Below, in pieces: positions 1 to 32,669 of a DNA stretch of 35,620 nucleotides. Origin of the DNA: a virus; IMG/VR virus record IMGVR_UViG_3300016457_000123, positions 1 to 35,620 of that record; one strand, 5' to 3'. The notes under the pieces were generated by a model. The model was given only the letters and a program-made list of their open reading frames with translations, did no database searches and was not told where the DNA came from. Every line of letters begins with the position of its first letter. Positions within the stretch are counted from its first letter, which is position 1. Both the position numbers and the translations under genes were made by a program.

Positions 1-20
1 TTAAGAGCTTTTTAAAATCG

Positions 21-3598: not shown

Positions 3599-4792
3599 TT
3601 AACTAAAGCTGACCAGCCCGTATGGGGCTGAGATTGATGTAGCGTTAGGTGTTGCAATATTGGAAGGATTCCAAGAATGATGCAACACTTCTAATACTAA
3701 CGGACCACTCCACCAATCTTCTGCGCTCATTGTCATGTTCCCATCTGGTCTAATCGTACATTTGGGAATCATGTAGACAAAATCATTACCAACATCTGTT
3801 CTGAAATACAACTGTGCTGATCCATAGGTCAGTGCAGCAGACATTGGAGTAAATACAGGAGTTCCCACTTTGGCATTTGAAGACCTGTCAGTTCCAAGCA
3901 GGAATTTCCTGAAGTTGGCTACATTGATTTCATCAAAAGTGAACGGTATGGTTAGTGTTTTCTGAGAAACTACTACATGGTCTTTAATTCGAGCACCGGC
4001 TGTATCAGTAATATAGTGCTCTAAATATGTCACGTCTGGAGCAATTTCACTTGTAGTGATGTTACCGAATAGACGTGAGGGTGTTCGGAAAGCAGACCCG
4101 ACACCGTTTGTCGTACCGGCGTCTAGGGAGGCATGTGCGCTATGTTGGACTATATCATCATCCAAATCCTTGGATGTCGGGCGCTCTAGTGAGAGTTATT
4201 GACTGGCCTGTCTCATCTCATAAGTCTCTGAACCTTCCCCATACTGAGTGGCCATTCAGGGGCTTGGCTGCTGATTGCTCTGTCTTCTTTCTTTTTACAC
4301 CATCACGCTTGCCGTTTCCAGCTACGTTGTGGTGAAAGAAGATTAAAGAGGTTCCCAGCAATTCACCCGATTTTCACTTAACTGTTACCAGCTAAGGGCG
4401 CCGCTGTTGACGCTTGCCTCAAAATAAAGCAGTTTTGTTACCGTGAAGCCGTTTAAACTTCACTTCTTACAGTTTCCCGTAAGCTCAGACCATATCATCC
4501 TCAAAAGAGGTCGGGCACTCGTGGCTTGATTATTGACTGGTCTGTCTCACAAGCTGGCCGTTGAACCTTCTCCATACTTTTATGACCTTTCAGGAGCTTG
4601 GCTGCTGATTGCCCACATCCAAGAAACTTTTCAAACCGTCACGCTTGCCGTTTCCAGCTACGTTGTGGTGTTCTTGGCTCTAAGGGTGTTCCAGCAATTC
4701 ACCCGATTTAAAGCGGACCTTTGCTAAATTATTGAAATTGTTAAAAAATCCGCTTGGCCTACCGTATAGTTATTCGCGCTAATGACCGTCAT
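3599..4792 (-). CDS. Tail-tube-like protein split by two group I introns
   Basis: The gene is three exons: 4792..4748 (45 nt), 4429..4410 (20 nt) and 4139..3599 (541 nt). Joined they give 606 nt and a 201-residue protein. The restored N-terminal part YTVGQADLYFEASVAH aligns with LTVGKAELYFRDGVAS in the adjacent paralog (4857..5429), and the similarity continues through PDVTYLEHY and FTFDEIN. A Shine-Dalgarno AAGGAG precedes the ATG at 4792. The open frame that starts with an ATG at 4165 begins inside intron B and is not the native start. Position before the chaperone and tape measure genes suggests a major tail tube or tail sheath-less tube protein; this is inference from order and tandem duplication. 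Confidence 0.85.
4140..4409 (-). ncRNA. Group I intron B (270 nt, ORF-less)
   Basis: P1 pairs GCGU (exon end) with GCGC, and the preceding GCG pairs with exon start CGC as P10. A P2-like hairpin CTTAGCTG-gtaa-CAGTTAAG follows. The core GCAATCAGCAGCCAAGC lies at 4278..4262, followed by GGTTCAGAGAC and a closing GATGATATAGTCC. The intron ends in G at 4140. It lacks the 3' hairpin extension present in introns A, C and D. It shares with intron A a P5-region insert (CCACAACGTAGCTGGAAACG). Confidence 0.9.
4410..4429 (-). other. 20-nt internal micro-exon
   Basis: Sequence CTTTATTTTGAGGCAAGCGT encodes LYFEAS plus two bases of a valine codon. It is bounded by intron A and intron B. Both P1 and P10 pairings and the match to LYFRDG in the neighbouring paralog fix its ends. 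Confidence 0.88.
4430..4747 (-). ncRNA. Group I intron A (318 nt, ORF-less)
   Basis: P1 pairs exon end AAGCGGAU with GUCCGCUU with the expected U-G at the splice site. The bases just before the guide (AAAG) pair with the first bases of the next exon (CTTT) as P10. Core signatures are GAATTGCTGG, the R-type segment GCAATCAGCAGCCAAGC (4612..4596) and the S-type GGTTCAACGG. The intron ends in G. Near the 3' end is a hairpin GTGAAG-tttaaacg-GCTTCAC that introns C and D also carry in variant form. Confidence 0.92.
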
Positions 4793-4856
4793 TATTATTC
4801 ACACTCCTTTTAGCTAATCATAGCTAAATATAACTAAATCTAACTTATTTGCTTAC

Positions 4857-5429
4857 TTAAAACTCACTCCCGTTAATTATTGTAGATGAAAAATCTACAT
4901 AACCCCAAGGAGCAAGAGATGCGTTACTATCATTTCCTACGTGATAGGTATTATGATACATTATGTCAAGTCGCATATCACCTTTTACCCAGTCTGTGCC
5001 ACGGAGTGGTAATCCACCATCAGATTTCATAACACATTTCGGAATCACGTATTTGAACTGTGTTCCTACATCTGTTATGAATCTCAACACAGCTCTACCC
5101 CTAATGCCTTCTTTTAGCATTACGGGCATTCTGCTAGCAGATGTATCAATACTACCACCAAGTAGGAAGTGTTGAAGGTTAGTCTTATCTATCTCATCAA
5201 AGGTAAACGTAACTGAGATACCATTAGTTACGGTAAACTCTTCATCCTTTACACGTTTACCTTTGACAGCACTGTAGTGAGTTACATAACTAACATCAGG
5301 ATTAATATTAGAAATGTCAATATTTCCTAAACTTACCACTGCTGGTAAAGTTCCAAAAGCTGGAGAAGCTACCCCATCTCTGAAATACAGTTCTGCTTTC
5401 CCAACAGTAAGTTTGGCAGTATCAGTCAT
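4857..5429 (-). CDS. Tail-tube-like protein, intact paralog
   Basis: This 190-residue protein is the uninterrupted relative of the split gene next to it. Shared blocks include LTVGKAELYF, PDVSYVTHY, TFTFDEID and a C-terminal pair of KFVIPKC-like and WGYVDFSS-like segments. Beta-rich composition fits the tail-tube fold. The ATG at 5429 is preceded by AAGGTGGG. Two tandem tube-like proteins could be tube plus a decoration or terminator variant, or two tube subunits. No intron signature is visible in this copy. Confidence 0.7.
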   Translation of the reverse strand: MTDTAKLTVGKAELYFRDGVASPAFGTLPAVVSLGNIDISNINPDVSYVTHYSAVKGKRVKDEEFTVTNGISVTFTFDEIDKTNLQHFLLGGSIDTSASRMPVMLKEGIRGRAVLRFITDVGTQFKYVIPKCVMKSDGGLPLRGTDWVKGDMRLDIMYHNTYHVGNDSNASLAPWGYVDFSSTIINGSEF

Positions 5430-5448: not shown

Positions 5449-6561
5449 TTAACAAGCATTTCTCAATTCTCCAAAAGTACATCCTGCCTGCTGATGCACT
5501 TCCTTATGACACTTCTTACAAAGCGTGATGCAGTTGTCTACATCAGCACTTTCTATAGGTTCAAGTTTAACTGGGAGAATGTGGTGACACTGAAGGTCTT
5601 CAGTGCTTCCGCACTTTTGACAAGTCCAGTTATCACGTTCAAATACTATCTCCCTCAATTCAGGCTGGAGTTCTCTGGTTAAATCATTAGACTCAATATT
5701 AAGTTTGCTATTTGGATGTTTTCTATATATTGAACATTTGCTTTTACATTCATCAGAACAATAAAGATGGTATTCTCCCAATGTATTTCCTTTAAGAGCT
5801 TGTATTCTGTGACTCACTTGAGTCAGTGTGGGCGTAAACCATTTTCTACAGCTAGATTCATAGCATCTAACCTGCAACAAATCTTCATTATCTGGATCTC
5901 TTCTAACCTCTTCACACCAGTCTAGTTGGTGAGCATATGTGTCGTAAAGGGGTATATTCCTTTCTCTTATTCCACCTTTCCATCTAGGAGGTTTGCCTGT
6001 TATTCCTTTCATTCTCAATTTCCAACAGACTGGACATCTTGATCCTTTTCTAAAACTAACAAAAGAAGTTGAATAAATATGTCCTTCTGGACATTGGATG
6101 CGTAGTTTAGCCCATACATTGAGATATTTTTTTGACAATAACTTATATCCTGCTGATTCAATATGTTGCTTTACTTCTGAAAATTCATACTTCTTTACGT
6201 TTTTGCAGATCGCACATCGTTTACCGTTTTTGAAATTACTAAATTTCACATAGTATCTATGTCCCATAGGACATTCAACTAAAATCTTCTTTTCATCTTT
6301 TTCGTATCTTGAAAGAAGCTTGTACCCGCTCTCTTCAATAAACTGCCTCACTTCAGATTCTGACCTTCTATTGTTTATATACATACACTTTTTACATCTA
6401 CAGCCACGCAAAAATGTTCGAAAGGATACAGAATATACGTGCCCTTTGGGACATTTTAGAGTTATCTTAGAAGTGTCGAATGGAGTATCTGAGTTTCTAA
6501 GTAACTCATACCTATATTTTTCAACATACTGTGAGACAGTTTCCTCAGTCCATTTTTTCAT
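5449..6561 (-). CDS. HNH endonuclease with three zinc-binding repeats
   Basis: This 370-residue protein has three tandem modules (about residues 1-65, 66-125, 126-185), each with CPxGHxY followed by CxxC, likely small zinc-binding DNA contacts. The C-terminus is a canonical HNH/McrA-type nuclease: CQKCG, then CHHILPV, then the asparagine-bearing DNCITLC and CKKCHKEVH (about residues 315-360). A middle part carries further cysteine pairs. The start ATG overlaps the upstream stop by ATGA. The gene sits with a glycosyltransferase and a LAGLIDADG gene in the middle of tail genes, typical of a free-standing homing endonuclease. Its target could be an intron-less site; this is inference. Confidence 0.85.
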   Translation of the reverse strand: MKKWTEETVSQYVEKYRYELLRNSDTPFDTSKITLKCPKGHVYSVSFRTFLRGCRCKKCMYINNRRSESEVRQFIEESGYKLLSRYEKDEKKILVECPMGHRYYVKFSNFKNGKRCAICKNVKKYEFSEVKQHIESAGYKLLSKKYLNVWAKLRIQCPEGHIYSTSFVSFRKGSRCPVCWKLRMKGITGKPPRWKGGIRERNIPLYDTYAHQLDWCEEVRRDPDNEDLLQVRCYESSCRKWFTPTLTQVSHRIQALKGNTLGEYHLYCSDECKSKCSIYRKHPNSKLNIESNDLTRELQPELREIVFERDNWTCQKCGSTEDLQCHHILPVKLEPIESADVDNCITLCKKCHKEVHQQAGCTFGELRNAC

Positions 6562-7745
6562 AGAATATACCTTAGAGATTCATTATCTTTACCATATTCA
6601 AATTCATAAAGCTGTTTTATCTTTGGGGGGATTCTTTTCTTTGGTAAGTTTAGAAGAAAAGAAAAGAGCCCTTCCAGCGACCAGACGAAGTTTTCCATCA
6701 CAAGTTCTTTACGTTTCTGCTCAATATTCTCCATCACTTCATAATATTTATTCTCAAGCTGGAGAGTATCTTTGACATCTTCTATATCATCAAATGTAAA
6801 CCCAATCTTGTGCCTCCGCACATAGTCTTCAGATTGTCTACACCAAACTGCTAAAGATGGTAATCCACACTGCAAGTATTCTTGCAGTTTGTTGGTCATG
6901 GTAAGATTTACCTGTCTTTCAGTTGCTTCTTTATTGTTGAAAATGTGTATACCATATTTGAAATTCACCATAGCCTTCATCATTTCATCATAGTCTGTAG
7001 GTGGATAAAGAACAGCACCTATAAACTGTAATGTATTGAAAGCTGTCATATTTCCACAGAACAGGTGAACTTCATTACCCATCTCAACAAGTCTACGAAA
7101 GATCCATCCAAGATTTCTATAAGGGAAAGTCTTGTTAGCCAATTCATCATCAGGTGGATTGATACCACCTTCATAGACCAATCCCCTTCTTTTGGGAATG
7201 TCTTCTTTGTTGTATTCAATTATTCCTCTGTTACAGTAAGGATAAAGAACCATCGTGGGCTTGTTGAGTGCGTGCAATCGCTCCGTTCTCTGGCGGATAG
7301 GTTCCGATACGTAGATAAGAGCATCTGCTGCGAGGAACATTTCCCGTTCGTCGATGGGAATCACTTCAGACTTCAATCTGCAACTATCAAGATCATGGCA
7401 ATCTACCACCAATTTTACTCTGTCTTGAACTCCCATTTCATTGATGACTTGACGAATCCAAACTGCTGGCATTTGTGGCTCATTATTGTATGTTATGCCA
7501 CGTACACCTAGATCTATCAGATCTTTTACTGCCCTCTTGAATTGTTCTTCGGTCTTGTAAACCATAAAATTATCAAGAACATCTGTTCCATAGGGTACTC
7601 TGTTTCCAAGACCATATACTTTATACCCAACCCTTTTTAGAGCTTTTGCCTTTTTTTGGCATCTTATACACCAGTGCATTCCTACCTCTGCGAGTTTGAG
7701 AGGCTCACCATTTTCATCCAGTATCGGCTTATCATAATCAATCAT
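6558..7745 (-). CDS. GT-B glycosyltransferase-like protein
   Basis: A 395-residue protein with a GT4-like architecture: an N-terminal Rossmann-type half with the central switch at YPYCNRG and RGLVYEGG (about residues 190-215), and a C-terminal half containing the donor-site-like run MTNKLQEYLQCGLPSLAVW (about 310-330), matching the KLxEYLACGLPVVA pattern of family 4 enzymes. It presumably transfers a sugar from a nucleotide donor. The ATG at 7745 has AGGAG six bases upstream, and a TTG at 7751 is an alternative. It lies between two homing endonuclease genes and away from the main glycan cassette. Confidence 0.75.
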   Translation of the reverse strand: MIDYDKPILDENGEPLKLAEVGMHWCIRCQKKAKALKRVGYKVYGLGNRVPYGTDVLDNFMVYKTEEQFKRAVKDLIDLGVRGITYNNEPQMPAVWIRQVINEMGVQDRVKLVVDCHDLDSCRLKSEVIPIDEREMFLAADALIYVSEPIRQRTERLHALNKPTMVLYPYCNRGIIEYNKEDIPKRRGLVYEGGINPPDDELANKTFPYRNLGWIFRRLVEMGNEVHLFCGNMTAFNTLQFIGAVLYPPTDYDEMMKAMVNFKYGIHIFNNKEATERQVNLTMTNKLQEYLQCGLPSLAVWCRQSEDYVRRHKIGFTFDDIEDVKDTLQLENKYYEVMENIEQKRKELVMENFVWSLEGLFSFLLNLPKKRIPPKIKQLYEFEYGKDNESLRYIL

Positions 7746-7754
7746 ATTCAACTC

Positions 7755-8540
7755 CTAATAATCAAATTTATATCCATAAATATGTTCTATTTCAGAAGGA
7801 CACGGACCTATGAAATCCAAAAAATCTCCTGTTTTTGCAGTAGCAAATCTTATCGTATTACAAGAAGGCTGTCTTGTACATTTAAGTCCCATTCTAGTGA
7901 ACTTCTCTACAGCAAATTCTACATCTTCTACTGGAAATCCTTCTGTGCAGATTCTAACATACTTTTTGTTGCTAGAACACTCGCTCAAACTACCATCACC
8001 TATATACCAGTGGAGGACTATGGTTGGTGTAAATTCCAAATCTCTTGGGATTATTTTCCTTCCATCTCTATACATATAGTTTCTAATAGCCAGTAATTCT
8101 TCATAGTGTTTTGTCCAGTATTGATAATAAACTGCTTTATTCTTTTTATGAACAAATTTATTGATTTTTCCCATACTCTCTATATTATTTTTCTCAAAAA
8201 CATCTTTTATATATGAAATTACATCTAGATACTTAGATGAATGTGCATAAGCAGCAGTACGCTGCTTATTCTTTTTATCATTAACACTAAAAATCCCACC
8301 ATCTCCTAGAACATTTCCCTGTATAAATTCCAGCATTTCATCGGAAATTATTACTGGAGGATTCTTTCTACAGAGAAACAGAGTTTCAGACAAACTTCGT
8401 ATTGGAATATCATACTTTACCAAATATCTACGAATTGAAGAGGAAGTCACACCTACTAACTTTGCTATCTCGGTTTGATTCAGCTTCTCCACAACATATT
8501 TCTGATACAACCAATCTTTATCTTTCCAATTTTCATTCAC
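7755..8540 (-). CDS. LAGLIDADG homing endonuclease
   Basis: This 261-residue protein has two LAGLIDADG-type motifs, LEFIQGNVLGDGG (about residues 68-80) and VLHWYIGDGSLS (about 170-181), so it could act as a monomer. Each ends in an acidic residue in GDG, as needed for metal binding. The N-terminal 45 residues form a helix-turn-helix (LNQTEIAKLVGVTSSSIRRYL). It is free-standing, not inside an intron, and has an AAGGAG site before the ATG. It is a candidate for mobilising one or more of the ORF-less group I introns in the window. That link is inference only. Confidence 0.88.
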   Translation of the reverse strand: MNENWKDKDWLYQKYVVEKLNQTEIAKLVGVTSSSIRRYLVKYDIPIRSLSETLFLCRKNPPVIISDEMLEFIQGNVLGDGGIFSVNDKKNKQRTAAYAHSSKYLDVISYIKDVFEKNNIESMGKINKFVHKKNKAVYYQYWTKHYEELLAIRNYMYRDGRKIIPRDLEFTPTIVLHWYIGDGSLSECSSNKKYVRICTEGFPVEDVEFAVEKFTRMGLKCTRQPSCNTIRFATAKTGDFLDFIGPCPSEIEHIYGYKFDY

Positions 8541-11071: not shown

Positions 11072-12091
11072 TTATGCTCTTGCATATCGTTGACGTTTGC
11101 GAATAAAAGCTGAAACCAGCTTCTTAGCTACTGGGGATATAGGTAGTTTTGTTAGATTACCTGTATCAAAATCTACTCTAGTATCTCCAATCTTAATAAC
11201 TCTAGCTCCTATTTCCTTGTAACTAAGTACAGAATCCAGATTAGAGCTTCTAACCAGAAATTCAGCCTGCTCACATTGTGCGTTCTTTATTTTTTTGTCA
11301 ATAGGTGCAAATACAATAAATTCTGTGTTAGTGGTAGGAGTAGCTGTAAATGCAGGATCAACAACAATTCTTCCGTTAGATGAATCAGATGAGCTGATCT
11401 GTCTAATATCATTGAGAGGTGTTCCGGTTGTTATATGAACAGCACCGTATTTCCAATAATTGTCTGGATAAACTCCATAGGTATCTGAATATAAACTTGT
11501 ATTTTGAAAAGCAGTGGCAGTGATAGGCGTAGCAGGATTTCCAGTTACAGTCTCGTGATCGTCTCTAGGAAACTGCATTGATTGAGAGTCGTAGTATTTA
11601 TCTCCATTGAAATTGAATGTATCAATCACACGAGCTGCTTCTATCAGAACTCTTTTCTTTCCTTCTATTGTGAGTGTATCCCAAAGGTTAGAATGGCTAA
11701 ACTTATTCCTTATATATTTTGTAGCTTCTTCCAGTGTCACATAAGAATTAGCATTTGGATCTGCCACCTTAGCATTTAGTGTAAGATTTCCTATCACTTC
11801 GCAGGTTATCTTCTTCACCCGTACTGAACCACCACTCATGGTTCCTTTTAGTGTGATAGTATAGAACGTATCAGCAGTTCCATCAGCTATTGTGAATGTT
11901 ACATTTGGAGATGATATAGAAACTCCTGAAATCATTACAGAAGTTTTATCATTTCCTGCATCATCTGATATAGTAACATCACAAGAACTAAGAGTTTCAC
12001 CAGACGGAATTACTGATGAGAATGAAAATGTTATATCATAAGTCTCATCAGAATACTTATATATATAATCGGTATTGTAATCTATCTTCAT
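11072..12091 (-). CDS. Head-tail adaptor-like protein with N-terminal Ig-like domain
   Basis: A 339-residue protein in two parts. Residues 1-105 look like an immunoglobulin-type beta domain rich in Ser, Thr and Val. Residues 110-339 contain ANSYVTLEEATKYI, WDTLTIEGKKRVLIEAARVID and MQFPRDD, which match the DnaT-like/adaptor family found in the connector region of many phages, and a C-terminal basic RKRQRYARA. The second part probably contacts the portal, and the Ig part may be surface-exposed. A domain fusion of this kind is plausible but unusual. Confidence 0.65.
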   Translation of the reverse strand: MKIDYNTDYIYKYSDETYDITFSFSSVIPSGETLSSCDVTISDDAGNDKTSVMISGVSISSPNVTFTIADGTADTFYTITLKGTMSGGSVRVKKITCEVIGNLTLNAKVADPNANSYVTLEEATKYIRNKFSHSNLWDTLTIEGKKRVLIEAARVIDTFNFNGDKYYDSQSMQFPRDDHETVTGNPATPITATAFQNTSLYSDTYGVYPDNYWKYGAVHITTGTPLNDIRQISSSDSSNGRIVVDPAFTATPTTNTEFIVFAPIDKKIKNAQCEQAEFLVRSSNLDSVLSYKEIGARVIKIGDTRVDFDTGNLTKLPISPVAKKLVSAFIRKRQRYARA

Positions 12092-12102: not shown

Positions 12103-12240
12103 CTATTTCTCTACCTGCATTTCTGATGGTGGTTCTGGAATACCTGGTGTAGCTTTGGCATGAACCACAGCTAATGCATCACTCGATATTGATACTACTA
12201 GGAGGAGACAACCTAAAATAAATCCTAAATATTTTACCAT
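12103..12240 (-). CDS. Small secreted peptide
   Basis: A 45-residue product with a typical Sec signal peptide: charged start MVKYLGF, hydrophobic core ILGCLLLVVSIS and probable cleavage after SSDALA. The mature part is only about 20 residues and proline-rich (ATPGIPEPPSE). AGGAGATG lies eight bases or so before the ATG. Its first 62 bases overlap the end of the upstream gene in another frame. Too short for a family call. Confidence 0.5.
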   Translation of the reverse strand: MVKYLGFILGCLLLVVSISSDALAVVHAKATPGIPEPPSEMQVEK

Positions 12241-12586
12241 TCTTTACATCTCCTGAATTTGTAGATTCTATCCATCTACTACAACCATACTGGTTGCAAC
12301 TTCTGATCTGGATAGAAAAATGTCCAACTTTAGGTTTTGAGATCGTAATTCGTGTTTCAGAAGTTCTCCCTATATTATATATTACAGGACCAGATTTAGG
12401 ATCTAACCATAAAAGTCTTATTTCGTACCACTCCGCTCGTTCTGCTGCATCCCAAGCTACTGTTATATTATCTTCTGCTATATATAGTGTTCCATTCCAC
12501 TCAGCTATAATATCTGCATTAACATTAACATTATAAAGAATGAGTAGAATTAGAAACAGAGCTGAGAAAAAAATCTTGAGCTTCAT
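12179..12586 (-). CDS. Secreted fibronectin type III-like protein
   Basis: A 135-residue protein with an N-terminal signal peptide (MKLKIFFSALFLILLILYNV, likely cleaved after VNA). Residues 40-110 form an Fn3-like beta sandwich: ITVAWDAAERAEWYEIRL and HFSIQIRSCNQYGCSRW. The last 20 residues overlap the next small gene and may not be important. No strong ribosome site is visible. Secreted Fn3 domains suggest surface or carbohydrate binding; this is inference. Confidence 0.65.
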   Translation of the reverse strand: MKLKIFFSALFLILLILYNVNVNADIIAEWNGTLYIAEDNITVAWDAAERAEWYEIRLLWLDPKSGPVIYNIGRTSETRITISKPKVGHFSIQIRSCNQYGCSRWIESTNSGDVKNGKIFRIYFRLSPPSSINIE

Positions 12587-12917: not shown

Positions 12918-13370
12918 TTAGTCTCCTACTAACAGTGCTTTAATTTCTTTTTCTGGAAACATTCCACCAAATTCTTCAGTAGATATTCCACTCACTTTAC
13001 AAATTGCAGGTATGATATTTTGTAACACCGGAACAGATTGGTAGTATACTTTTTCATAACCCGAAATCATCATCATTAGCTGTAGACTTATAGTCAATTT
13101 CTCAATGTCTATACAATCATTATCATATCTTAGATTGTACAACTTCTTTACACCTAGATGTTTTCCAACTCTAAGCAGGTCATATTTCCGCTGGGCATAT
13201 CTGGCTTCTTCACATAAGATAAATCCATATCTTTCTTCAATCTGCATAGGTATTGAGTTGTCATTACACACAACCACCACTTCATATATAGCTTTATCTT
13301 TCTTGATTTTGTGAGATAGATTGTAAATCCAGCTATAGGTATTGAAAGATATTACAAGTATTCTTCTCAT
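12918..13370 (-). CDS. Possible degenerate PIG-L-like protein
   Basis: A 150-residue protein whose order of segments recalls GlcNAc-PI deacetylase (PIG-L) proteins: a first strand RRILVISFN, then YEVVVVCND, RYAQRKYDLLRVGKHLGVKKLYNLRYDND and a later helix and strand EKVYYQSVP. The metal-binding HPDDE expected after the first strand is absent (NTYSW here), so catalysis in the usual way is doubtful. It ends the methyltransferase/glycan cassette. The family assignment is tentative. Confidence 0.4.
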   Translation of the reverse strand: MRRILVISFNTYSWIYNLSHKIKKDKAIYEVVVVCNDNSIPMQIEERYGFILCEEARYAQRKYDLLRVGKHLGVKKLYNLRYDNDCIDIEKLTISLQLMMMISGYEKVYYQSVPVLQNIIPAICKVSGISTEEFGGMFPEKEIKALLVGD

Positions 13371-13373: not shown

Positions 13374-14036
13374 TCACCTATACATTTTCATTAGTTTACC
13401 GTTCGGAAATAACGATTCATCAATAACGTAATCAATCTTATCTTCCCAGAAGAACCGTATCTCCCATATAAATCTAGCACCTTTACAATAATGGCTTTCA
13501 AGATGATTTGCTAATTCTGGTATTCCCCAATAAACCTTAGTCATCAATTCTGCTAGAAAATCATCATATTCATATTCTTCTCTCTTTCTTATATGAAGAA
13601 TATCATTTTGGTAGGATATAAACCAGATATGACCATCTCGCTTCGGTCTGAGTAATACTTCCCACTCATAAGATGGACAGGCTACAAATCCTCGTTTTCC
13701 AACCCTGCTAATTTCTTCCAGTGCCTTTGGTAGATTCTCTATATGTTCAATGGTGTGGTTTGTGTAGATAAAATCAAATTCATTATCTTCAAACATTGAC
13801 ATATCATCAGCAGAACCATTCACAAACACTTTTCCTTCTGGTGTAACTACTTTATCTCCATATCTTTCTTGAAGTGGATTTCCTTCTTTCATATCAAGAA
13901 GATGAGTAGCAAGTGGAAAAGGTCTATCTCCAGAACCTATATCAAGAATTTTATCTCCTTCTTTGATACCAAAATCTAATTCCCATCTTCCTGCATAGGA
14001 TGCGTCTGAACGGAAACATCCGATTTGGGTCATCAT
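13374..14036 (-). CDS. Class I SAM-dependent methyltransferase
   Basis: A 220-residue protein with the nucleotide-binding motif DKILDIGSGDRPFP (about residues 28-41), an acidic motif before NGSADDMSMF, and the post-motif FDFIYTNHTIEHIENLPKAL typical of UbiE/type 11 methyltransferases. It may methylate a sugar made by its neighbours. The start overlaps the stop of the 852-residue gene (ATGA), indicating coupling. The substrate cannot be read from the sequence. Confidence 0.85.
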   Translation of the reverse strand: MMTQIGCFRSDASYAGRWELDFGIKEGDKILDIGSGDRPFPLATHLLDMKEGNPLQERYGDKVVTPEGKVFVNGSADDMSMFEDNEFDFIYTNHTIEHIENLPKALEEISRVGKRGFVACPSYEWEVLLRPKRDGHIWFISYQNDILHIRKREEYEYDDFLAELMTKVYWGIPELANHLESHYCKGARFIWEIRFFWEDKIDYVIDESLFPNGKLMKMYR

Positions 14037-16591
14037 GATTTAATTTCCTCTAACCAGTTAATTCCTTCAGCTTTGAATATTTGAATGGCTCTGCGTAGCC
14101 GTGGGTAGTCGCACCAGTTCGTCATACCATGAAAATTACATTTCAACTGTTCGATATTTTCGATAGGTTTGAAGTTCTTTATATCACAAATGGGTTGCTT
14201 GTCATAATACATTCGATAGTGGCAATGGTATATTCTTCCAGCAGGACTGACAAGTAAACACATCAAAGCATGTGGACAATATACTGTCTTAGGTTCTGAC
14301 TGACCACACCATTTTCTATAAAGGTCATAGTCATCTATCCCACATTGTTTCAAAGCCATTTCTTGGTCATGATATTTTTCATTAGGCATTAGATTTTCAG
14401 GACAAGGTTTGGCTTTGTATCTATCTTTATCATTCCAAAATCCTAAGTATGGCGGAGATTCAAGCTCTAGCTCTTCTTGTACCTTCTTTATTCTATCTCC
14501 CCACTTGTCCATCACTTCTGGCGTGTAGACAAACATTGTCTGGCCTACATAAAATCCAGCATCTCTGAACCTTTTTATCCTTTCAATGTACTTTTCTGGT
14601 TCCAAAGCGTGTGGATGGTAGCTGGTATTTATTCTCAACTTGGTTGAAGGTTGTGGTTTGAATCGTTTTTCAAATCCTTTAGTATAGAATGAACCAACAC
14701 AATTGGTAGTAAGTGTGACATAGTATCCATCTATATTGTTTATTATTTCAACAATATCAGGATGCATTGTCGTTTCACGTGCCATGAAAGAGAGAGGCCA
14801 TCCATTAGGATGCTCTATATTATTCCACCATTCTAAAATTCTCTTTCCACTCAGTTCAATCTGCCTTTTATGTGGACCACGACCATTTACCAAGCAATAT
14901 TCACACTCAGCATTACATTTACTGGTTATCATGTGTGCCCAGTAATTGTTGTTCTGGTAATAGTAATCAGGCAACTTGAGATATTTAGATGTTGGTTTCC
15001 AGTCTGCATCACTATTATCTACATCTACATAACCAAAGTCTCTAACAATCGGCTGGAGAATCTTGGTGATGTGATCAACTAAATTCTTCTTATTCTTGAA
15101 GAAGCCATCGTATGCAGTATCTAAGTGTCTCCTAATTTCTGCCTGTTTCTTATCCAACTTCTTGTTGTATCTCTTTTCATGGTGTGGATTCCTACTATAT
15201 TTGTATGCTTCTAACATCTTAGAATTTTTAGGTATTTCTAAGAACTTACATATCTTATCTACTTCACCTTCAGTATCTTCAATGAGATCTTCTAACTTGA
15301 CTACCAAAACTCTATCATTGTATTTTTCCTTCAAGAAATCTAATATCATCTGAGAATATTCAATGTCTTTGATTGCACCAATTCGTGTTCCTGTTGGGTG
15401 GTAGTCAATCCAGTTTCCACTAAATTTTTCATTTTCTTCCGCTGGTGCTGCTCGATAAATCATTGATAGACAATTATCTACAGGGTGTCGCATTGTATAG
15501 ATTATCTTCAGATTCGGATTAGCCTTGAGAAGTCTATCCAAGTTCTTGATATTTACAAAATAGTTTTCAATAGCCAGCTTTGTTCCGTATCTATCTGGAA
15601 GAACATTATAAGAGAAAAGATTTCTATCTTCTACTGCTTCAGTAAACTTATACTCTCCTGAAAGGTTTACTATCTCTGTAACCCAGTTTCCTCCACTATG
15701 TCCTGTACCTGTAATCAATACCTGACCTTTAGTAGTAGGTGCTAGATCAAAGTATCTCAACAAATCTTGTCTGTGATTTTCCCAATTTTTTATTTCTGTA
15801 AGTGGTGAATCGTTACCAGCAATATGTACGTTTCCGAATAGTGGAATAGCTTGATGAACAGGAGTGCATAGAAATATTGCTAACAGATCTTTTCTGAAAG
15901 CACCAGCAATGTGCATCACAACACTATCAATTGCACAGACCTGATCTGCTATACTGATAAGTGCTTTGGTAAAGTTGAAATCATCTTCTGGAACTTCAAT
16001 TGAATGAGATGTGCTTTTCTTTCCAAACTCCAAAACAGTAAACTTGGAATATGTGTCATTCACTATCTTCTCAAGCACGTCTTCTGGAATCTCTTTAGGC
16101 GGATTCCCAGCTTTGTTATGCAGAACTAATAAAGGTCTGTCATAATCTTTTACAAACTCCTGTGCTTTAAGTAAGTATTCATCATCTATTGCAAGCTCAG
16201 TAGCTAGCTCATCTATTGAATCAAAATTAACTCCTAACTCAAAAGCTGTTCTGAATATCTTATGATGTAAAAATCCTTCTCTAGGTTTATGTAAAATTAG
16301 TTTAACTTCGTCAAATTTACCTATAAAATTATATACAATACGTTGTTTTATAAACTTGATTCCTTCTTCATAAGATTTGAAATCATTCCAAGGATCAGGT
16401 AAATCTGGTAGAAAACCGTGTATGTAAGGTAATCCACCAAGAAGTTGTTCTACTTTAGGTCCAAAACGACTGAGACTAGCTATAGTTATTTTAGTGTCTG
16501 GATGTAGCTTTGAGTATTTTCTCAAGGCTGGTGTGAGTAACACGTGATCTCCTAAGCCATGAGGGTAAACTACTAACAGAGATTGTTCCAT
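14033..16591 (-). CDS. GT9-like / sulfotransferase-like / radical SAM fusion
   Basis: An 852-residue protein made of three modules. Residues 1-285 resemble ADP-heptose-type GT9 transferases (LVVYPHGLGDHVLLTPALR at the start, QVCAIDSVVMHIAGA near 217-231). Residues 290-520 resemble PAPS sulfotransferases: a phosphate loop ITGTGHSGGNWV and RHPVDNCLSM near 368-377. Residues 550-852 form a radical SAM domain with CNAECEYC (C559, C563, C566) followed by C-terminal cysteines (about 730, 750, 762, 772, 778, 790, 818, 827) that could bind further Fe-S clusters, as in SPASM proteins. The three parts lie in one uninterrupted frame. The chemistry and substrate are unknown. Confidence 0.8.
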   Translation of the reverse strand: MEQSLLVVYPHGLGDHVLLTPALRKYSKLHPDTKITIASLSRFGPKVEQLLGGLPYIHGFLPDLPDPWNDFKSYEEGIKFIKQRIVYNFIGKFDEVKLILHKPREGFLHHKIFRTAFELGVNFDSIDELATELAIDDEYLLKAQEFVKDYDRPLLVLHNKAGNPPKEIPEDVLEKIVNDTYSKFTVLEFGKKSTSHSIEVPEDDFNFTKALISIADQVCAIDSVVMHIAGAFRKDLLAIFLCTPVHQAIPLFGNVHIAGNDSPLTEIKNWENHRQDLLRYFDLAPTTKGQVLITGTGHSGGNWVTEIVNLSGEYKFTEAVEDRNLFSYNVLPDRYGTKLAIENYFVNIKNLDRLLKANPNLKIIYTMRHPVDNCLSMIYRAAPAEENEKFSGNWIDYHPTGTRIGAIKDIEYSQMILDFLKEKYNDRVLVVKLEDLIEDTEGEVDKICKFLEIPKNSKMLEAYKYSRNPHHEKRYNKKLDKKQAEIRRHLDTAYDGFFKNKKNLVDHITKILQPIVRDFGYVDVDNSDADWKPTSKYLKLPDYYYQNNNYWAHMITSKCNAECEYCLVNGRGPHKRQIELSGKRILEWWNNIEHPNGWPLSFMARETTMHPDIVEIINNIDGYYVTLTTNCVGSFYTKGFEKRFKPQPSTKLRINTSYHPHALEPEKYIERIKRFRDAGFYVGQTMFVYTPEVMDKWGDRIKKVQEELELESPPYLGFWNDKDRYKAKPCPENLMPNEKYHDQEMALKQCGIDDYDLYRKWCGQSEPKTVYCPHALMCLLVSPAGRIYHCHYRMYYDKQPICDIKNFKPIENIEQLKCNFHGMTNWCDYPRLRRAIQIFKAEGINWLEEIKS

Positions 16592-17524
16592 TTAAGACCT
16601 CGTTCTTTCCACACAATCAAGTATTCTTTTCACCACTTCTTCCCAAGTGTACATTCTATTTACTTTAGAAAACGCTTCTTCACTTATTTGTTTCCTTAGA
16701 GAAACATCATCTAAATATTTCTGGATCTTATCTGCACATTCTGATAGTGTCTCAAATGTATCTAAATGTTTTCCTATGTCAAAGAACACAGACAAATCAT
16801 TGCAATGTTCTGAAAGAATGAAAGTCTTACAGGCCATTGCAGTCACAACACGATCTGAGAAAATATTAGAATGAACTAGATTCAGTACAATCTTAGCTTT
16901 GTTTATCTCTTTTCTTAAATCGTGTAGATATACTGGTTCATTAGCTTCGAGAAATTCAGGATACCCACCACCAAATATTTTGATATTGATACCTTTGTCT
17001 TTCAATTCTTTGAGATAAGTAACCCTTTTGCTGGTAGCATTTCCAAAGAATAGAACTTCTGTTTCTTTTTTAATCTCTTCAGGATAGAATATCTTCTGAG
17101 AAAATCCTTCGATTATTTGATAAATGTTATCATGTTTGACATGCTTAATGAATAAATCACTTATGACTTCACTAGATGTAGCACTGACAAACTTGCATCT
17201 TTTAGCATATTCTTCAGCTCTCATAGCCTGTGCTACTGAGATATTATCCATGAACCAGTACCATGTATTAGTTTTGCTAGAAGCCATTTCTACCACATCA
17301 GGAGCAACACCACTAATCTTACAGAAGATAAGCAGTTCAGGTTTGTTATTTTCAAGAATGAATTTAGTGTAATTAAAGAGATATTCTCTACCTTTTTCCT
17401 GAAGAGTATTTCTGTAATTTATTGGAATTATTTCAAATTTAAGTTTCCTAAATGCTTCTGCCATCCAAACATTGGTAGATGTAGGATCATCTAACACTCC
17501 CATTATAGCAACTGTTCTATTCAT
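16592..17524 (-). CDS. CgeB-like glycosyltransferase
   Basis: A 310-residue protein resembling the CgeB/DUF3880 group of GT-B transferases: an N-terminal half with NTWYWFMDNISVAQ and FVSATSSEV, a linker IIEGFSQKIFYPE, and a C-terminal half with EVLFFGNATSKRVTYLKEL, KIFGGGYP and the donor-binding region SDRVVTAMACKTFILSEH. It ends one base before the next ATG, so it is coupled to the fusion gene. It probably adds a sugar to the same product as its neighbours. Confidence 0.75.
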   Translation of the reverse strand: MNRTVAIMGVLDDPTSTNVWMAEAFRKLKFEIIPINYRNTLQEKGREYLFNYTKFILENNKPELLIFCKISGVAPDVVEMASSKTNTWYWFMDNISVAQAMRAEEYAKRCKFVSATSSEVISDLFIKHVKHDNIYQIIEGFSQKIFYPEEIKKETEVLFFGNATSKRVTYLKELKDKGINIKIFGGGYPEFLEANEPVYLHDLRKEINKAKIVLNLVHSNIFSDRVVTAMACKTFILSEHCNDLSVFFDIGKHLDTFETLSECADKIQKYLDDVSLRKQISEEAFSKVNRMYTWEEVVKRILDCVERTRS

Positions 17525-18492
17525 TATACACCCTCAATTATAGAGTTGAGTTTTGCACAGGAATTTGATAGAGTTTCAACATATTCTGCTGTTTCTTCCT
17601 GTCTTGCCTTTTCTAACAAATTAAGCATTTCAGCTACATCATTTAGTATTGTTTGAGAATCTATAGCTCTATAATCAACTACGGTTCTGAAAGACACAGG
17701 CACATCAAATTTATTTTCAAACTTTACATGTCTTTCTTTCTCATGTCCTATTATATATGAAGGACAACCAGCATGTAAACTGACATGAGTCAGTCCAGAT
17801 TGGCTACTGATTGAACACACAGCAGAATTTAAGTATCTGACTATCAGGTCCATCTTATCTTCTTTGTTGTAGTCAATCAGATTTATGACATTATCTGCTG
17901 TATATCCTAAAAGAAAAGAACCAGAAGGAGTGCCACAAAGTACCACAGTAAAATACTTTCTCAACTCTTCTACAACTTCTCTCCATATAAATTCTGGAAC
18001 GTTTCTCTGTGGTGCTCTACTTCTACCTCGTGGCATTACACATATAATATCTCGATCAGATTTGATAGGCTCTTCCTTCTGCAATCTGAACAATTGTGGT
18101 AGAAATGTCACAAAAGGGTTACATCCCCTAGGTGGAAATATCTCTATACACTTTTCATAGTCATAAAATCCACGCATATATTCTATCATTCTGGAATATA
18201 CATGGGGTGGTGTCAAAGAACCCGGTTTTGAATCTGGTAAAACAGCTTCATAACAATCTCTTTCTAGTTCTAGTTTGTAAAACCATTCTGGTAGCTCTAT
18301 TGAATATTTAACGAAATCTTTTACAAATATATGGTAATCTAAGTCTATAAAGGCTACAAAAGGTTTATCCTTATATACTTCCTTATGTAGATATCTCATA
18401 TGTCCAAACCAACGGCTTAGGCCCCAACCAAGCTCTCCAAAATGAAAAAAAGCTACACACGGTTCATCAATATATAAATTATCACTTTCCAT
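17524..18492 (-). CDS. GT9/GT-B-like glycosyltransferase
   Basis: A 322-residue protein. The C-terminal half has a strand-helix pattern with RYFTVVLCGTP-like segments (about residue 190) and AVCSISSQSGLTHVSLHAGCPSYIIG (about 228-253), matching the DSGxxHLAAxxGxP donor-site pattern of heptosyltransferase-like enzymes. The N-terminal half begins VAFFHFGELGWGL. It overlaps the neighbouring genes by one and eleven bases. Substrate unknown. Confidence 0.65.
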   Translation of the reverse strand: MESDNLYIDEPCVAFFHFGELGWGLSRWFGHMRYLHKEVYKDKPFVAFIDLDYHIFVKDFVKYSIELPEWFYKLELERDCYEAVLPDSKPGSLTPPHVYSRMIEYMRGFYDYEKCIEIFPPRGCNPFVTFLPQLFRLQKEEPIKSDRDIICVMPRGRSRAPQRNVPEFIWREVVEELRKYFTVVLCGTPSGSFLLGYTADNVINLIDYNKEDKMDLIVRYLNSAVCSISSQSGLTHVSLHAGCPSYIIGHEKERHVKFENKFDVPVSFRTVVDYRAIDSQTILNDVAEMLNLLEKARQEETAEYVETLSNSCAKLNSIIEGV

Positions 18493-19642: not shown

Positions 19643-20668
19643 TTATTGTAAGTTATTTATTGTGTTTACTAGGTAAAGAGTTGAAGCATTATACGCTTCA
19701 AACTCTAATAAATCTACTGCATTAGCTGTAGCAGTTAACGATGGAGATGTACCACTTGGAAATTTGAAATTCGTATCAAACGACAAAGTCCTACCTCCAG
19801 TTGTATCTTGAACTACTTTTAGAATATATCTCGCTCCAGCTTGAACATTTGTTGGATTAGATAAAGTTCTATTTCCACCCAGTGTAACGTAAGCAAATCC
19901 ACCAGAAGATACATCCCAATTTATATTTGTTTCATCTGTTAATTCCTGAATGTTCTGACTAAACTGGTTACTATTTACTATTCCCTGAACACTCAAGTTT
20001 CCTGTCATAATATCTCCAGATTTATTTACATAAGCATTGTCAAGAATTTCTGTATTAGTAGGTATTTCCCAATGAGAATCTGAATTTCCTTCATAATAAA
20101 GAATAACTTCGGGAGCATTACCTGAACCCGATACATCTGCATAAATCTTACCTACAACATAACTATCGCTAGCAAGATCGTGGTCCGAAGACAAAGTTAA
20201 CGGAATAATATAAGAATTTTTGTCTGTTATGACTTCATTACTAACAACAGAAGTTCCAATAACCACTTCTGAATTATCACTTTTCCTCTCTACTAATTTC
20301 CAATAAAACCTTAATGTCTTCTTTCCACCACCCTTTTCCGCATATATCCCCCAGTTATATACTCCTCTAATCAATTTATCGGGTTCATTTTGATTAGGAC
20401 TAATCCATCCTGCTAGATACTGACCATCTACAACATCTGTTTTGCTAATACTCTGTTCTGCACCTGTTGAAGCATCAAGAGAACACAATTTGTAATCAGA
20501 GATACCAGAATCTGTATCAATCATATAGTATCTTGCACCTAATGAAGTTACTATTTCATCTACATACTTCTTATCAACCAAGTGACAGAGATTAGATATA
20601 ATTCTACTAGAATCATATGAAACTACACTAGCTAGTTTAGTTCTGTTGCTGAGCCCAATGTGTCCCAC
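19643..20668 (-). CDS. Tail-fibre-like protein
   Basis: A 341-residue Ser/Thr/Asn-rich protein. Around residue 215 it has YVNKSGDIMTGNLSVQGIV, the DxMTGxLxV repeat seen in many tail fibre and receptor-binding proteins. The C-terminal 80 residues look beta-rich (YVTLGGNRTLSNPTNVQAGARY ends with RTLSFDTNFKFPSG), like a fibre tip or an exposed binding domain. The start is GTG with GGAGATG upstream. It probably forms part of a receptor-binding structure. Confidence 0.65.
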   Translation of the reverse strand: MGHIGLSNRTKLASVVSYDSSRIISNLCHLVDKKYVDEIVTSLGARYYMIDTDSGISDYKLCSLDASTGAEQSISKTDVVDGQYLAGWISPNQNEPDKLIRGVYNWGIYAEKGGGKKTLRFYWKLVERKSDNSEVVIGTSVVSNEVITDKNSYIIPLTLSSDHDLASDSYVVGKIYADVSGSGNAPEVILYYEGNSDSHWEIPTNTEILDNAYVNKSGDIMTGNLSVQGIVNSNQFSQNIQELTDETNINWDVSSGGFAYVTLGGNRTLSNPTNVQAGARYILKVVQDTTGGRTLSFDTNFKFPSGTSPSLTATANAVDLLEFEAYNASTLYLVNTINNLQ

Positions 20669-21434: not shown

Positions 21435-23438
21435 TTACCAATCATTAGTTCCCCACTTAGCTTTGCCCCATGGGCCTTTTTGAGGTGGGTCGTAGACTAA
21501 TGTTCCATTTTGTACTTTTGGAGAAATAAATCTCCCATCTATCATAACTGCAGGGTCAATGAGCACATATGCTCCTGATTCGTATTTTGTAAGCACTAGA
21601 TTGAAGTAAACGTTTCCTTCTTGAGCATTTGTAAATGTAACGCTGAGATCTTGCCAGTTCTCATTGGTGAAAGATGTAGTAGATGTAGTTACTTTGATTG
21701 TGCTTACGTCTGAAGATGAACTTGGATACCAAGCTTCAATGTAGATGTCATCTTGGTCTAATGAGGTCCAGCCATAAGGGTAGATTTTAAATGTGATAGT
21801 GTGTTGTTTGGTTGATGGAAAGTAGTAGGACATATAGTCATTATCATAAACAAGCTTAAGTTTAGTAGCGTCTCTGCCAGCAGAACAATATGAATTTGGT
21901 GTAGCCTGTAATATCCAGTCACTACCAGATGGAGGATATTGCCAGTCTGTATCACCATAAACAAGCGGCAAGATATTTCCTTTAGTTGTATAAATTCGTA
22001 GAGGACGTATTGTGCCAACAATGTTACAATTTTCCATATAAAGGCTAGCGGTTCTTTCAGAAACAGAAGCAACAAAAACCGAAGGTGTCGGATTGATTAT
22101 TGAATTAACTATTATAGATGTATTACCTGGATTCCAAGAATCCATTATTCTGTAAACATAGGATATATTACAACTTTGTAGTTTCTGTGGGTTACTGCTG
22201 CGGAAGATAGAATAACATCTTCTTATTTCAGAGTTCTGGACTTGTTGTGTACTCCCATGTCCTACGACTTTACATCCTATGATTTTGACATTCTGAACAG
22301 TTGTTAGATGTGTACCAGAAAGCGCACACTCTATACCAACAAAATCTAAACTGAGATCGCTGTGGGCTATTTCTCTACATAATTTATAACAAGAATACAG
22401 CAAGCCAGACCAGTTCATATTCGTAAGTGGTCCACTATGTCCTACATAATGACAATTCCAAAAAACACAATCAGCATTTATCCATCGACCATCTTCTTTG
22501 GAAAAGCAATATTCCCATCCCTTCATAACAACTTCGTTAAAATTTATGAGATCATTGTTTAGTTGGCTGATGCATCCTCTAATCACTTCACTGTAGCTAT
22601 TATACCCATATAATGCTGTAGGACTATTTGGATCAGACCACTCAATATTTCTGCTCAGCATCCATACGTAGCCACCCTCATAGAATGTAGCATCTGCAAT
22701 GCTGGCATCGTAGGTCAACGTGATTGGAGTTCTGTCATTTCCTGAATCATAGCTTCCAACTGAAGAGATTTCAAAGTTGGGAACATCGGTCTGGTAGTCT
22801 GTTGAGCTAGGAACAGAAGGAATGTTCTTGTCCACTGCGATCCTTTGTCCTGCCTTCCAGCCAGTACAATCACCTGTTACATACAAGGTAAGTGAAGTAG
22901 AAGAATAGCTCCAATCGGCTGCTAGTGTAGTTCTGGCTACTCCACCATAAAAGTCTGGATCACCATATAAGTTGATCTTGGCTCCATCATACGTATATAC
23001 AGAGTCTCCAGCAGCAGAACGTTGGAAATAAAACCTACAATGATAAGCTGCATCTATGGGAGTAGTGCTAGTGCCTGCTCGTAGCTCTCCACCAGCCTCA
23101 ATAGTCAGCACTGCGTTGTTGCTACCACTGGTGTCGCCTATGTAGATAGTAGAGTTGGCATTGGCAGGGAACTCTAAGATACCAGAACTCTTGATAGTGA
23201 TGTTGCCAAAGGTCGCAGTGGAGTCTTCCAAGTTGTAAGTGACATGATGGCCTATTGTGGCCGTATCACCATCGGTTCCTGGGTAGTCCGTCCCAGCCAC
23301 ACCGGGTGATGTATTGCCCCACGTAGCTCCGTCTGCCCAGTTGCCATCTTGAACGCTAGTGAATGATGCAGCAAAAGCTGCTGAGACAGATACCAATAAT
23401 ATAGTGATTACTAGACAGGCTACTTTTAATAACTTCAT
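21435..23438 (-). CDS. Secreted beta-helix-like surface protein with G8-like repeats
   Basis: A 667-residue protein. Residues 1-24 form a signal peptide (MKLLKVACLVITILLVSVSA, cleavage near AFA). Residues 30-130 have a G8-type pattern: GNWADGATWGN, GDTATIGHHVTYN, FGNITIKSSGILEF and LTIEAGGELRAG. The middle contains many short strand-turn units (VKIIGCKVVGHGS, CNISYVYRI) suggesting a right-handed beta helix, like polysaccharide-binding or tailspike proteins. The C-terminus has a carbohydrate-binding-like beta sandwich. Its ATG overlaps the upstream stop (ATGA). A receptor-binding or glycan-degrading role is a fair inference. Confidence 0.65.
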   Translation of the reverse strand: MKLLKVACLVITILLVSVSAAFAASFTSVQDGNWADGATWGNTSPGVAGTDYPGTDGDTATIGHHVTYNLEDSTATFGNITIKSSGILEFPANANSTIYIGDTSGSNNAVLTIEAGGELRAGTSTTPIDAAYHCRFYFQRSAAGDSVYTYDGAKINLYGDPDFYGGVARTTLAADWSYSSTSLTLYVTGDCTGWKAGQRIAVDKNIPSVPSSTDYQTDVPNFEISSVGSYDSGNDRTPITLTYDASIADATFYEGGYVWMLSRNIEWSDPNSPTALYGYNSYSEVIRGCISQLNNDLINFNEVVMKGWEYCFSKEDGRWINADCVFWNCHYVGHSGPLTNMNWSGLLYSCYKLCREIAHSDLSLDFVGIECALSGTHLTTVQNVKIIGCKVVGHGSTQQVQNSEIRRCYSIFRSSNPQKLQSCNISYVYRIMDSWNPGNTSIIVNSIINPTPSVFVASVSERTASLYMENCNIVGTIRPLRIYTTKGNILPLVYGDTDWQYPPSGSDWILQATPNSYCSAGRDATKLKLVYDNDYMSYYFPSTKQHTITFKIYPYGWTSLDQDDIYIEAWYPSSSSDVSTIKVTTSTTSFTNENWQDLSVTFTNAQEGNVYFNLVLTKYESGAYVLIDPAVMIDGRFISPKVQNGTLVYDPPQKGPWGKAKWGTNDW

Positions 23439-24311: not shown

Positions 24312-24394
24312 TAACCTCATTCGTAGAAAAGGATGAGGTTAAGGTTAGAAGAAGAATATTGAGAATTTAGATTGGGGAAGATATCCCCAATCTA
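24312..24394 (-). terminator. Two hairpins after the major head gene
   Basis: An 11-bp inverted repeat TAGATTGGGGA/TCCCCAATCTA (24368..24378 and 24384..24394) lies just after the head-gene stop, followed by TAACCTCAT/ATGAGGTTA (24312..24320 and 24333..24341). U-runs are short. They probably attenuate transcription or protect the abundant head-gene mRNA. Confidence 0.55.
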
Positions 24395-24411
24395 ATTATT
24401 CTCTATCATGT

Positions 24412-25912
24412 TTAGCTAGAAGCAATATTATTAGCAATAGCATAACGCCAATTGGTTACACAACCACCGTACCGGCAGTTGATGGAGAGATAGTAAGACA
24501 AATTCACTTCGTCTCTCCATGTATCGAGAACGGGATCTTGCCTCTGAGTTGCCATTAGACCTTCTCGTCTGGTAATCAAGAACCACCCATCGGTATCGGT
24601 CAAATAGGACCACTCTAAAGGTTCTACCAACCCTTTGAGGACATTGATGTCGTTATCTGCACTCCCAGGAATCAAAGTAGAGTTTAGCAACACCTGTGCA
24701 GTAAACTTCAATGCTGGAGGAATCAAAAGGGTATCAGGTTGCAGTTCAATCACATTTCCTCTTTCATCCCTGTTGTTCACTGAAGTGAACGTAACATACG
24801 CACTTTGGAGATTTGTCTCAGTAAGTGCATTTGCAGCATTGTAGTTAGAATAGGTATTGCCCACTTTGTCAGGATGTGCAGTGGAAAAGTAGGGTTTACC
24901 ATCATATATTAGATTCCCAGTCGGGTCGTCAACGACATTGGCAATTGTGTTATTAAACACATCATTACCAGCAGTCATAGCACCGTAATTGAAGAACTTG
25001 GCATAAAATTTCTCTTTAGTCCTTCGATAAGACTTACCCCAAGAGGCCACAGTCTGCTGAATGAGATTAGCCTTTTGGTTGTCTTCAATGGACTCTTTAG
25101 AGAAACGAACCAATTTTCCGAAAGTTCGGTTCTTGCAAATCACAGTGTACCCTTCCATAGGAGCATCTGCCTGAAGATCTTCATCTTCTGGTTTCTCTTC
25201 AAGATCTCCCATCCCGATGGCCGTTGTAAACTTAGTATAGGCTTCAGTAGAGGGAATTACTTCAAATATCTCTTCGTATACTGGAGGCGTTTCATCATAT
25301 GCTTCCCAGAAATATCCGTCATCACCTTATGTAGAGCCGTTTAAACTCTACCTCACCGTTTCCAGTGAGAATCGGGTCATATCATCACCCAACAGTTTGG
25401 GTGTCCCGCGCTCATGGGAGAGATTATTGTTGGGACTCACTCTCCTGACCTCCGAACCTTCCTTGCTACCTTCGCCCAGCAAGGCTTGGCTGCTGATTGC
25501 CAATATCCCTAAAAGGGACTTAGGTTTCCAGCAATTCACGGGATTTTCAACTATCTGTTACCAGATAGTGGCGCAGCAGATCTACGCATCTTTTTTCATC
25601 GCCTCAGTAAAATCATCACGTCTTCATCACCTTATGTAGAGCCGTTTAAACTCTACCTCACCGTTTCCAGTGAGAATCGGACCATATCATCATCCAATTT
25701 CTTATTGGATGCCCTGCGCTCGTGGGGAGAATTACCCTCCTCAGCATTATCTGTTAGAAGTCGCTCCCTGGCCTCTGAACCTTCCAGAATGTTTCCACTC
25801 TGGCTTGGCTGCTGATTGCCAATATCCCTAAAAGGGACTTAGGTTTCCAGCAATTCACAGGGTTTTTCACTACCCGTTACCGAGTAGTGGCGCAATTCCT
25901 TACGCCTGCCAT
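24412..25912 (-). CDS. Major head protein (Mu gpT-like) split by two group I introns
   Basis: Three exons, 25912..25902 (11 nt), 25624..25584 (41 nt) and 25319..24412 (908 nt), join to 960 nt and a 319-residue protein. The joined start, MAGVRRDDFTEAMKKDAYG followed by YFWEAYDETPPVYEEIFEV, matches the usual N-terminus of Mu-like gpT major head subunits. Further blocks are EGYTVICKNRTFGKLVRFSK, LIYDGKPYFSTAHPD and a C-terminal NCRYGGCVTNWRYA. The open frame that starts at an ATG at 25212 lacks the conserved first 50 residues and is not the native start. GAAGGATGG precedes the ATG at 25912. The gene lies between the scaffold/decoration genes and the secreted proteins. Confidence 0.9.
25320..25583 (-). 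ncRNA. Group I intron D (264 nt, ORF-less)
   Basis: P1 pairs GCGU with GCGC. The core GCAATCAGCAGCCAAGC lies at 25500..25484, followed by GGTTCGGAGG and GGTGATGATATGACC. The 3' portion from CCGATTCTCACTGG to GGTGATG is identical to intron C over more than 50 bases, as is the segment from GTGAATTGCTGG to CAGCCAAGCC. It ends in G at 25320. P10 pairing is weak. Confidence 0.9.
25584..25624 (-). other. 41-nt internal exon of the head gene
   Basis: It encodes RRDDFTEAMKKDA between two introns. Its ends were set by matching reading frame and family sequence (DFTEAMKKDAYGYFWEAY) and by the P1 guides of intron D (GCGU with GCGC). Confidence 0.85.
25625..25901 (-). ncRNA. Group I intron C (277 nt, ORF-less)
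   Basis: P1 pairs exon end GGCGU with GCGCC (5 bp including the U-G). A P2-like hairpin CACTAC..GTAGTG follows. The core has GAATTGCTGG, GCAATCAGCAGCCAAGC (25819..25803) and GGTTCAGAGGCC. The 3' part has GATGATATGGTCC, a hairpin CTCACTGGAAACGGTGAG and TAGAGtttaaacggCTCTA. The intron ends in G at 25625. Confidence 0.92.
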
Positions 25913-25940
25913 TAATTTTCACCATCCTTCATAATATCTT

Positions 25941-26420: not shown

Positions 26421-26440
26421 ATTAATTTCACCTTCCTTTA

Positions 26441-27325: not shown

Positions 27326-27358
27326 AATAGCACCTCCGTGCGCCATCCGGCTTTGTTG

Positions 27359-27508: not shown

Positions 27509-27521
27509 TTCCCCAATTCCA

Positions 27522-29051: not shown

Positions 29052-29054
29052 TTA

Positions 29055-31473: not shown

Positions 31474-31479
31474 CTTTTT

Positions 31480-32264: not shown

Positions 32265-32284
32265 CCGACAGCTCCAATATTCAG

Positions 32285-32324: not shown

Positions 32325-32354
32325 GTATTAAGTTAAATATTTATTCAAAAATAC

Positions 32355-32382: not shown

Positions 32383-32406
32383 TACCTGTAGAAAGGAGGT
32401 GGAAAT

Positions 32407-32664: not shown

Positions 32665-32669
32665 TAGGA

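Follow-up and report, generated by a model that had tools for sequence, protein, structure and literature searches.

The DNA analysed here (the window, 35,620 bp, linear) is IMG/VR virus record IMGVR_UViG_3300016457_000123. Its minus strand carries an ATG-started gene of 852 codons, without internal stop, in which sequences resembling a GT9 glycosyltransferase, a sulfotransferase and a radical SAM enzyme follow one another (Table 1). The gene lies in a co-directional, tightly packed cassette with SD sequences, in the order 322-aa protein, glycosyltransferase, fusion gene, methyltransferase and 150-aa protein; the start of the methyltransferase overlaps the stop of the fusion gene. A tail-fibre-like gene on one side and head-tail connector genes on the other flank this cassette, which is within the late structural region. 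Among the ORFs annotated in the window, none was recognised as a lysogeny gene.

Table 1. Position of the fusion gene, its modules and motifs, and other features of the window. Residues are numbered in the fusion protein.
Feature	Position	Strand	Residues	Evidence
Fusion gene, 852 aa: GT9-like, sulfotransferase, radical SAM/SPASM-like	14033-16591	-		Frame, Pfam, motif positions
Module 1, GT9-like glycosyltransferase	15737-16591	-	~1-285	PF01075, TIGR02195, BLASTP
GLGDH loop	16544-16558		12-16	
D-S-x3-H-I-A motif			222-229	
Module 2, predicted PAPS-type sulfotransferase	14987-15736	-	~286-535	PF00685, PF13469 above cutoff
GHSGGNW of 5'-PSB loop	15683-15703		297-303	
3'-PB motif RHPVDNCLS	15464-15490		368-376	
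Module 3, radical SAM core and SPASM/twitch-like C-terminus	14036-14986	-	~536-852	Pfam, relatives' profile, fold search
CNAECEYC (Cx3Cx2C)	14894-14917		559-566 (C559/C563/C566)	
ARE at GGE position	within 14759-14782			
Cx12Gx4C	14222-14278		C772-C790	
Glyco_trans_1_2 glycosyltransferase, directly upstream of fusion gene	16592-17524	-		PF13524 2.5e-23
322-aa protein, possibly second GT-B-type glycosyltransferase	17524-18492	-		Weak local similarity to module 1; no family match in profile scans
SAM-dependent methyltransferase (MetW/Methyltransf_11-like)	13374-14036	-		Pfam 9.7e-10
150-aa protein, end of cassette	12918-13370	-		No family match in profile scans
Tail-fibre-like protein, upstream of cassette	19643-20668	-		PHROGs tail fiber 1.1e-6
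Head-tail adaptor, downstream of cassette	11072-12091	-		PHROG 477 2.3e-17; Pfam Gp77 1.6e-10
Two late-region proteins with signal-peptide-like N-termini	21435-23438; 12179-12586			By eye
Group I introns (RF00028), first tandem pair	25352-25593; 25657-25961	-		
Group I introns (RF00028), second tandem pair	4127-4419; 4466-4842	-		
Major-capsid ORF	24412-25212			
Tail-tube ORF	4857-5429			
HNH and LAGLIDADG homing endonucleases	5449-6561; 7755-8540			
ORF between the homing endonucleases	6558-7751			Marginal GT4 match, 0.0074
tRNA-Asp(gtc), at window end	20-94			

Several other features of the window deserve mention in their own right. Two late-region proteins appear by eye to have signal-peptide-like N-termini, which is odd for virion proteins; one of them has a G8 domain (7e-5), the other is small and by eye fibronectin-like. 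Four group I introns are arranged as two tandem pairs. The first pair lies immediately upstream of the major-capsid ORF, an ORF that is missing its N-terminal portion and has probably been split; the second lies immediately downstream of the tail-tube ORF. Tandem twin introns next to two structural genes in one small phage look unusual. Two homing endonuclease genes lie near the tail-tube gene.

Integrity of the reading frame

A first-pass annotation, which gave no strand, had described the gene as one uninterrupted frame joining three modules, each with its own signature motifs. The frame was borne out and every motif quoted was found in it; together with the Pfam and profile evidence, this establishes that the three modules are fused in one protein. 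The plus strand of the same interval is full of stops. A GAGG SD sequence ('cgaggtcttaaATG') precedes the start codon. At neither module junction is there an in-frame ATG with an SD; a rare-start TTG at codon 292 has only a bare AGG before it, and the ATG at codon 554 is merely five codons ahead of the first cluster cysteine. The absence of SD-associated ATG codons at the junctions and the position of the ATG at codon 554 make separate translation of the modules unlikely. The same absence, combined with the 852 stop-free codons and the SD at the start, argues that the frame did not arise by chance.

Only one assembly covers the fusion gene. Of two sister contigs that match positions 24380-35247 of the window, L002 is 99.9% identical and L003 about 97%, and neither extends to the gene. 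This single coverage, as well as the occurrence of separate genes in relatives (see below), would fit an assembly artefact in which two or three genes were joined through a missed stop. However, the modules are joined in frame through continuous linkers and neither junction contains a frameshift, a stop or an SD-ATG, whereas the other cassette genes have SDs. We thus regard an artefact as very improbable.

Assignment of the three modules

When the whole protein was scanned with Pfam, Sulfotransfer_1 (PF00685; 3.1e-17, 63.3 bits, cutoff 22) and Sulfotransfer_3 (PF13469; 3.1e-14, 54.2 bits, cutoff 27) scored above cutoff while Radical_SAM and Glyco_transf_9 scored below. Module 2 has both PAPS-binding loops, the 5'-PSB loop reading TGTGHSGGNW. 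Sulfotransferases usually have Lys or Arg in the latter loop, where module 2 has His. From its sequence, the module is strongly predicted to be a PAPS-type sulfotransferase.

The assignment of module 1 is the least secure of the three, drawing on a C-terminal motif region and on weak profile matches. Glyco_transf_9 (PF01075, cutoff 22) scored 18.8 bits (1.1e-3) against the whole protein, 20.8 bits in another scan and 23.6 bits with neighbours in frame. The heptosyltransferase model TIGR02195 matched module 1, scanned alone, at 2.7e-6, and a single pairwise BLASTP comparison with a GT9 ORF of another phage (L144:9242-10174) gave 4e-6. The module may be a glycosyltransferase of this kind and should be labelled GT9-like, not heptosyltransferase. 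A single-sequence structure model of modules 1-2 (the N-terminal two thirds of the protein) had a pLDDT of 38, too poor to use.

For module 3, the match of the whole protein to Radical_SAM (PF04055) was 2.2e-4 and 21.9 bits, under the cutoff of 29.5; a profile built from phage relatives restored the assignment. An AlphaFold model of the module (pTM 0.67) placed the Cx3Cx2C cluster motif in a TIM-barrel-like fold and matched radical SAM enzymes with probability 1.00 in Foldseek, including BlsE, CteB, DesII, SuiB, MoaA and EpeE. With the relatives' profile and the fold search, the predicted assignment is firm. The Cx12Gx4C segment is followed by Cys 802/818/827; together they resemble the SPASM/twitch pattern (Cx9-15Gx4C plus auxiliary-cluster cysteines) and may bind auxiliary clusters. 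The relative on contig L150 matched TIGR04085 at 7.5e-5, under its cutoff. An antiviral role of the viperin (pVip) type was considered and dropped (NF038283, 14.3 vs 180 bits; PADLOC pVip, 1e-4 over the core only).

In an alignment of the nearest 35 radical SAM ORFs, the Cx3CxYC, TN and SxH motifs were invariant, and all are kept in module 3. The situation is different for the SAM-binding motif GGE, which reads ARE. Across phage radical SAM sequences ungapped at these sites, G occupies the two positions in 230 of 235 and 230 of 237 cases, and R is found there in module 3 alone among 243 aligned domains (window included). The residues for Fe-S and SAM binding are therefore present as regards the cluster cysteines but deviate at GGE, and this change makes the activity of the module uncertain. 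The module could be dead or repurposed, for example as a binding or scaffold domain, leaving in effect a GT-sulfotransferase. The unique arginine speaks for such a state; against it, the module retains Cx3Cx2C, TN, SxH, the C-terminal Cys pattern and the glutamate of GGE, while loss of the cluster cysteines would be expected in a dead domain. Retention of these residues indicates that the module is not simply eroding, and we hold inactivity to be doubtful, if still a serious possibility.

The substrates of DesII and BlsE are sugars or sugar-nucleosides. Since the fold matches of module 3 span both this chemistry and peptide chemistry, the fold does not decide the substrate. The presence of the SPASM peptide maturases CteB, SuiB and EpeE among the top matches, along with low-scoring NCBIfam hits for WgkB and PapB, is consistent with action on a peptide or a structural protein, in the manner of a RiPP maturase, rather than on a sugar. 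Against this, the nearest relatives of the module reside in nucleotide-sugar operons, the fusion partners suit glycan work, and no precursor peptide gene was identified, albeit without a systematic search. A peptide substrate appears distinctly unlikely.

Distribution of the fusion and its relatives

A first, narrower radical SAM pattern scan had returned eight contigs with weak similarity. A broad one returned 120 viral contigs and, with the loci found earlier, yielded 243 other radical SAM ORFs. In none of the 243 could a GT9 or sulfotransferase domain be detected. Only five extend by over 150 residues beyond the domain on one side, and in these five ORFs Pfam found radical-SAM-type, Fer4_12 or SPASM domains only. 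Sulfotransferase profiles applied to other contigs carrying radical SAM genes gave matches in 3 of 48 (PF13469) and in 1 of 50 further contigs (PF00685); one match was above cutoff and all were short separate ORFs.

Pattern scans of viral and GTDB sequences can reveal close relatives only. Within that reach, searches of viral contigs with the whole protein, with modules 2 and 3 and with the PAPS-loop motif turned up no close relative; four matches to this motif gave no match to the fusion in a protein search. Neither the whole protein nor any module was matched in phages, plasmids or GTDB contigs, the GTDB scan again being confined to close relatives, and a search of open-access papers found none on a fusion of GT9-like, sulfotransferase and radical SAM modules. 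The first-pass annotation had not recognised this combination from phages, and indeed no second copy turned up in the collections searched.

The nearest relatives of module 3 are single genes of two IMG/VR contigs (L150:9232-10077 and L151:7235-8071). Their identity to it is in the range of about 24-33%: individual segments gave 33% and 28%, and alignments of greater length 26% and 25%. Their operons hold genes for GDP-mannose dehydratase, cytidylyltransferase, transketolase, LicD, a TylF methyltransferase and glycosyltransferases. Beside the large nucleotide-sugar operon of the first contig is a TCP-1/cpn60-family chaperonin gene (L150:5743-7134; 1.5e-95), by eye like an archaeal thermosome, and a similar ORF is found at L151:5186-6592; the host of the first contig is possibly archaeal. 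Several viral contigs (L041, L089, L028, L126 and L060) have at least three radical SAM genes close together, which suggests multi-step radical pathways in phages.

Proposed role and comparison with known systems

We propose, with a probability of roughly 60%, that this gene, located among the late structural genes of a tailed phage, encodes a trifunctional enzyme of glycan assembly and tailoring, which would most likely serve virion or host-surface glycans. Judging from the families involved, the GT9-like module would use a nucleotide-sugar donor to attach a sugar, host PAPS would supply the sulfate that the sulfotransferase module places on a hydroxyl of the resulting glycan, and the radical SAM module would modify the sugar by a radical epimerisation, dehydrogenation or deoxygenation. 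The adjoining methyltransferase may add a methyl group. The location of the cassette suggests that the product would decorate a virion protein, most likely one exposed at the surface such as the tail fibre, or else the host surface. Fusion of three steps of glycan assembly and tailoring in one enzyme would be the most economical account of the data.

Channelled modification of a glycan or glycopeptide had been suggested at the outset, and this suggestion is borne out in part. Channelling between the modules is conjectural. A role in glycan modification is supported by the neighbouring glycosyltransferase and methyltransferase, by the location beside the tail fibre and by the nucleotide-sugar operons of the nearest radical SAM relatives. 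In pelagimyophages, radical SAM cassettes and glycosyltransferases are located in the tail-fibre/host-recognition region (PMC7029224), and glycosylation of the capsid and tail tube of mycobacteriophage virions is cited as established (PMC12619734). The same enzyme might instead be directed specifically at LPS or exopolysaccharide on the host cell, changing this glycan at a late stage of infection and thereby preventing superinfection or the re-adsorption of progeny. Three points favour this: GT9 comprises the heptosyltransferases of LPS synthesis, signal-peptide-like N-termini occur in proteins of this phage, and O-chain modification is the role favoured for the pelagimyophage glycosyltransferases (PMC7029224). 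Nonetheless, with the cassette in the late structural region by tail-fibre and connector genes, virion decoration fits at least equally well, and the annotated ORFs include no identified lysogeny genes; restriction to the host surface seems rather unlikely. The readings weighed here overlap, and our confidences in them do not sum to one: the host-surface target and the inactive radical SAM module are variants of the trifunctional glycan enzyme.

In its most ambitious form, the proposal would have a single polypeptide perform sugar transfer, sulfation and radical sugar modification in sequence, giving a sulfated, radical-modified virion glycan, with a radical SAM site that tolerates ARE. To our knowledge, such chemistry is not known from phages, and we consider this form unlikely. 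Sulfotransferases and radical SAM proteins encoded by phages recur as orphans in viral metagenomes. The role of phage sulfotransferases has been called unclear (PMC10580990). Here both are physically tied to a GT-like domain beside tail-fibre genes, which argues that all three would act on one glycan; the fusion provides a single expressible protein with which joint action can be tested.

Module 2 shares with the sulfotransferase superfamily (PF00685/PF13469) the PAPS-loop and 3'-phosphate-loop motifs and above-cutoff scores, but differs from its members in being fused on both sides and in the His of its 5'-PSB loop. Module 1 has the GLGD loop and D-S-x3-H-I-A motif of heptosyltransferases and other GT9 proteins (PF01075); it is however far under the equivalog cutoffs, 285 aa in size and fused. 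The L150 and L151 genes share with module 3 the radical SAM core and the C-terminal pattern CHxxxY ... C...G.xN.CD, but encode single-domain proteins of 281 and 278 aa with GGE intact and no sulfotransferase or GT9 attached. The best structural match of module 3, the viral BFVD entry A0A516LBT3 (489 aa; 36% identity, E 7e-20), has about 190 residues beyond the matching part, so the fusion may have relatives beyond the reach of our search; this entry was absent from the matches of a fold search with the low-confidence model of modules 1-2 (pLDDT 38), an absence that carries no information. The most telling parallel among the contigs with sulfotransferase matches comes from a 194-kb phage (IMGVR_UViG_3300022602_000029, L144), in which tail-fibre/structural genes are followed by GT9-like, carbamoyltransferase and sulfotransferase genes. 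These are separate ORFs, the radical SAM genes are about 60 kb away from the row, and the sulfotransferase has no significant BLASTP similarity to module 2. The modules thus do occur as separate genes in relatives (L144, L150 and L151), a finding that the first-pass annotation had held would count against the fusion, but which does not undo it in this phage. In conclusion, the module types are known and usually separate; their joining is new in the collections searched.
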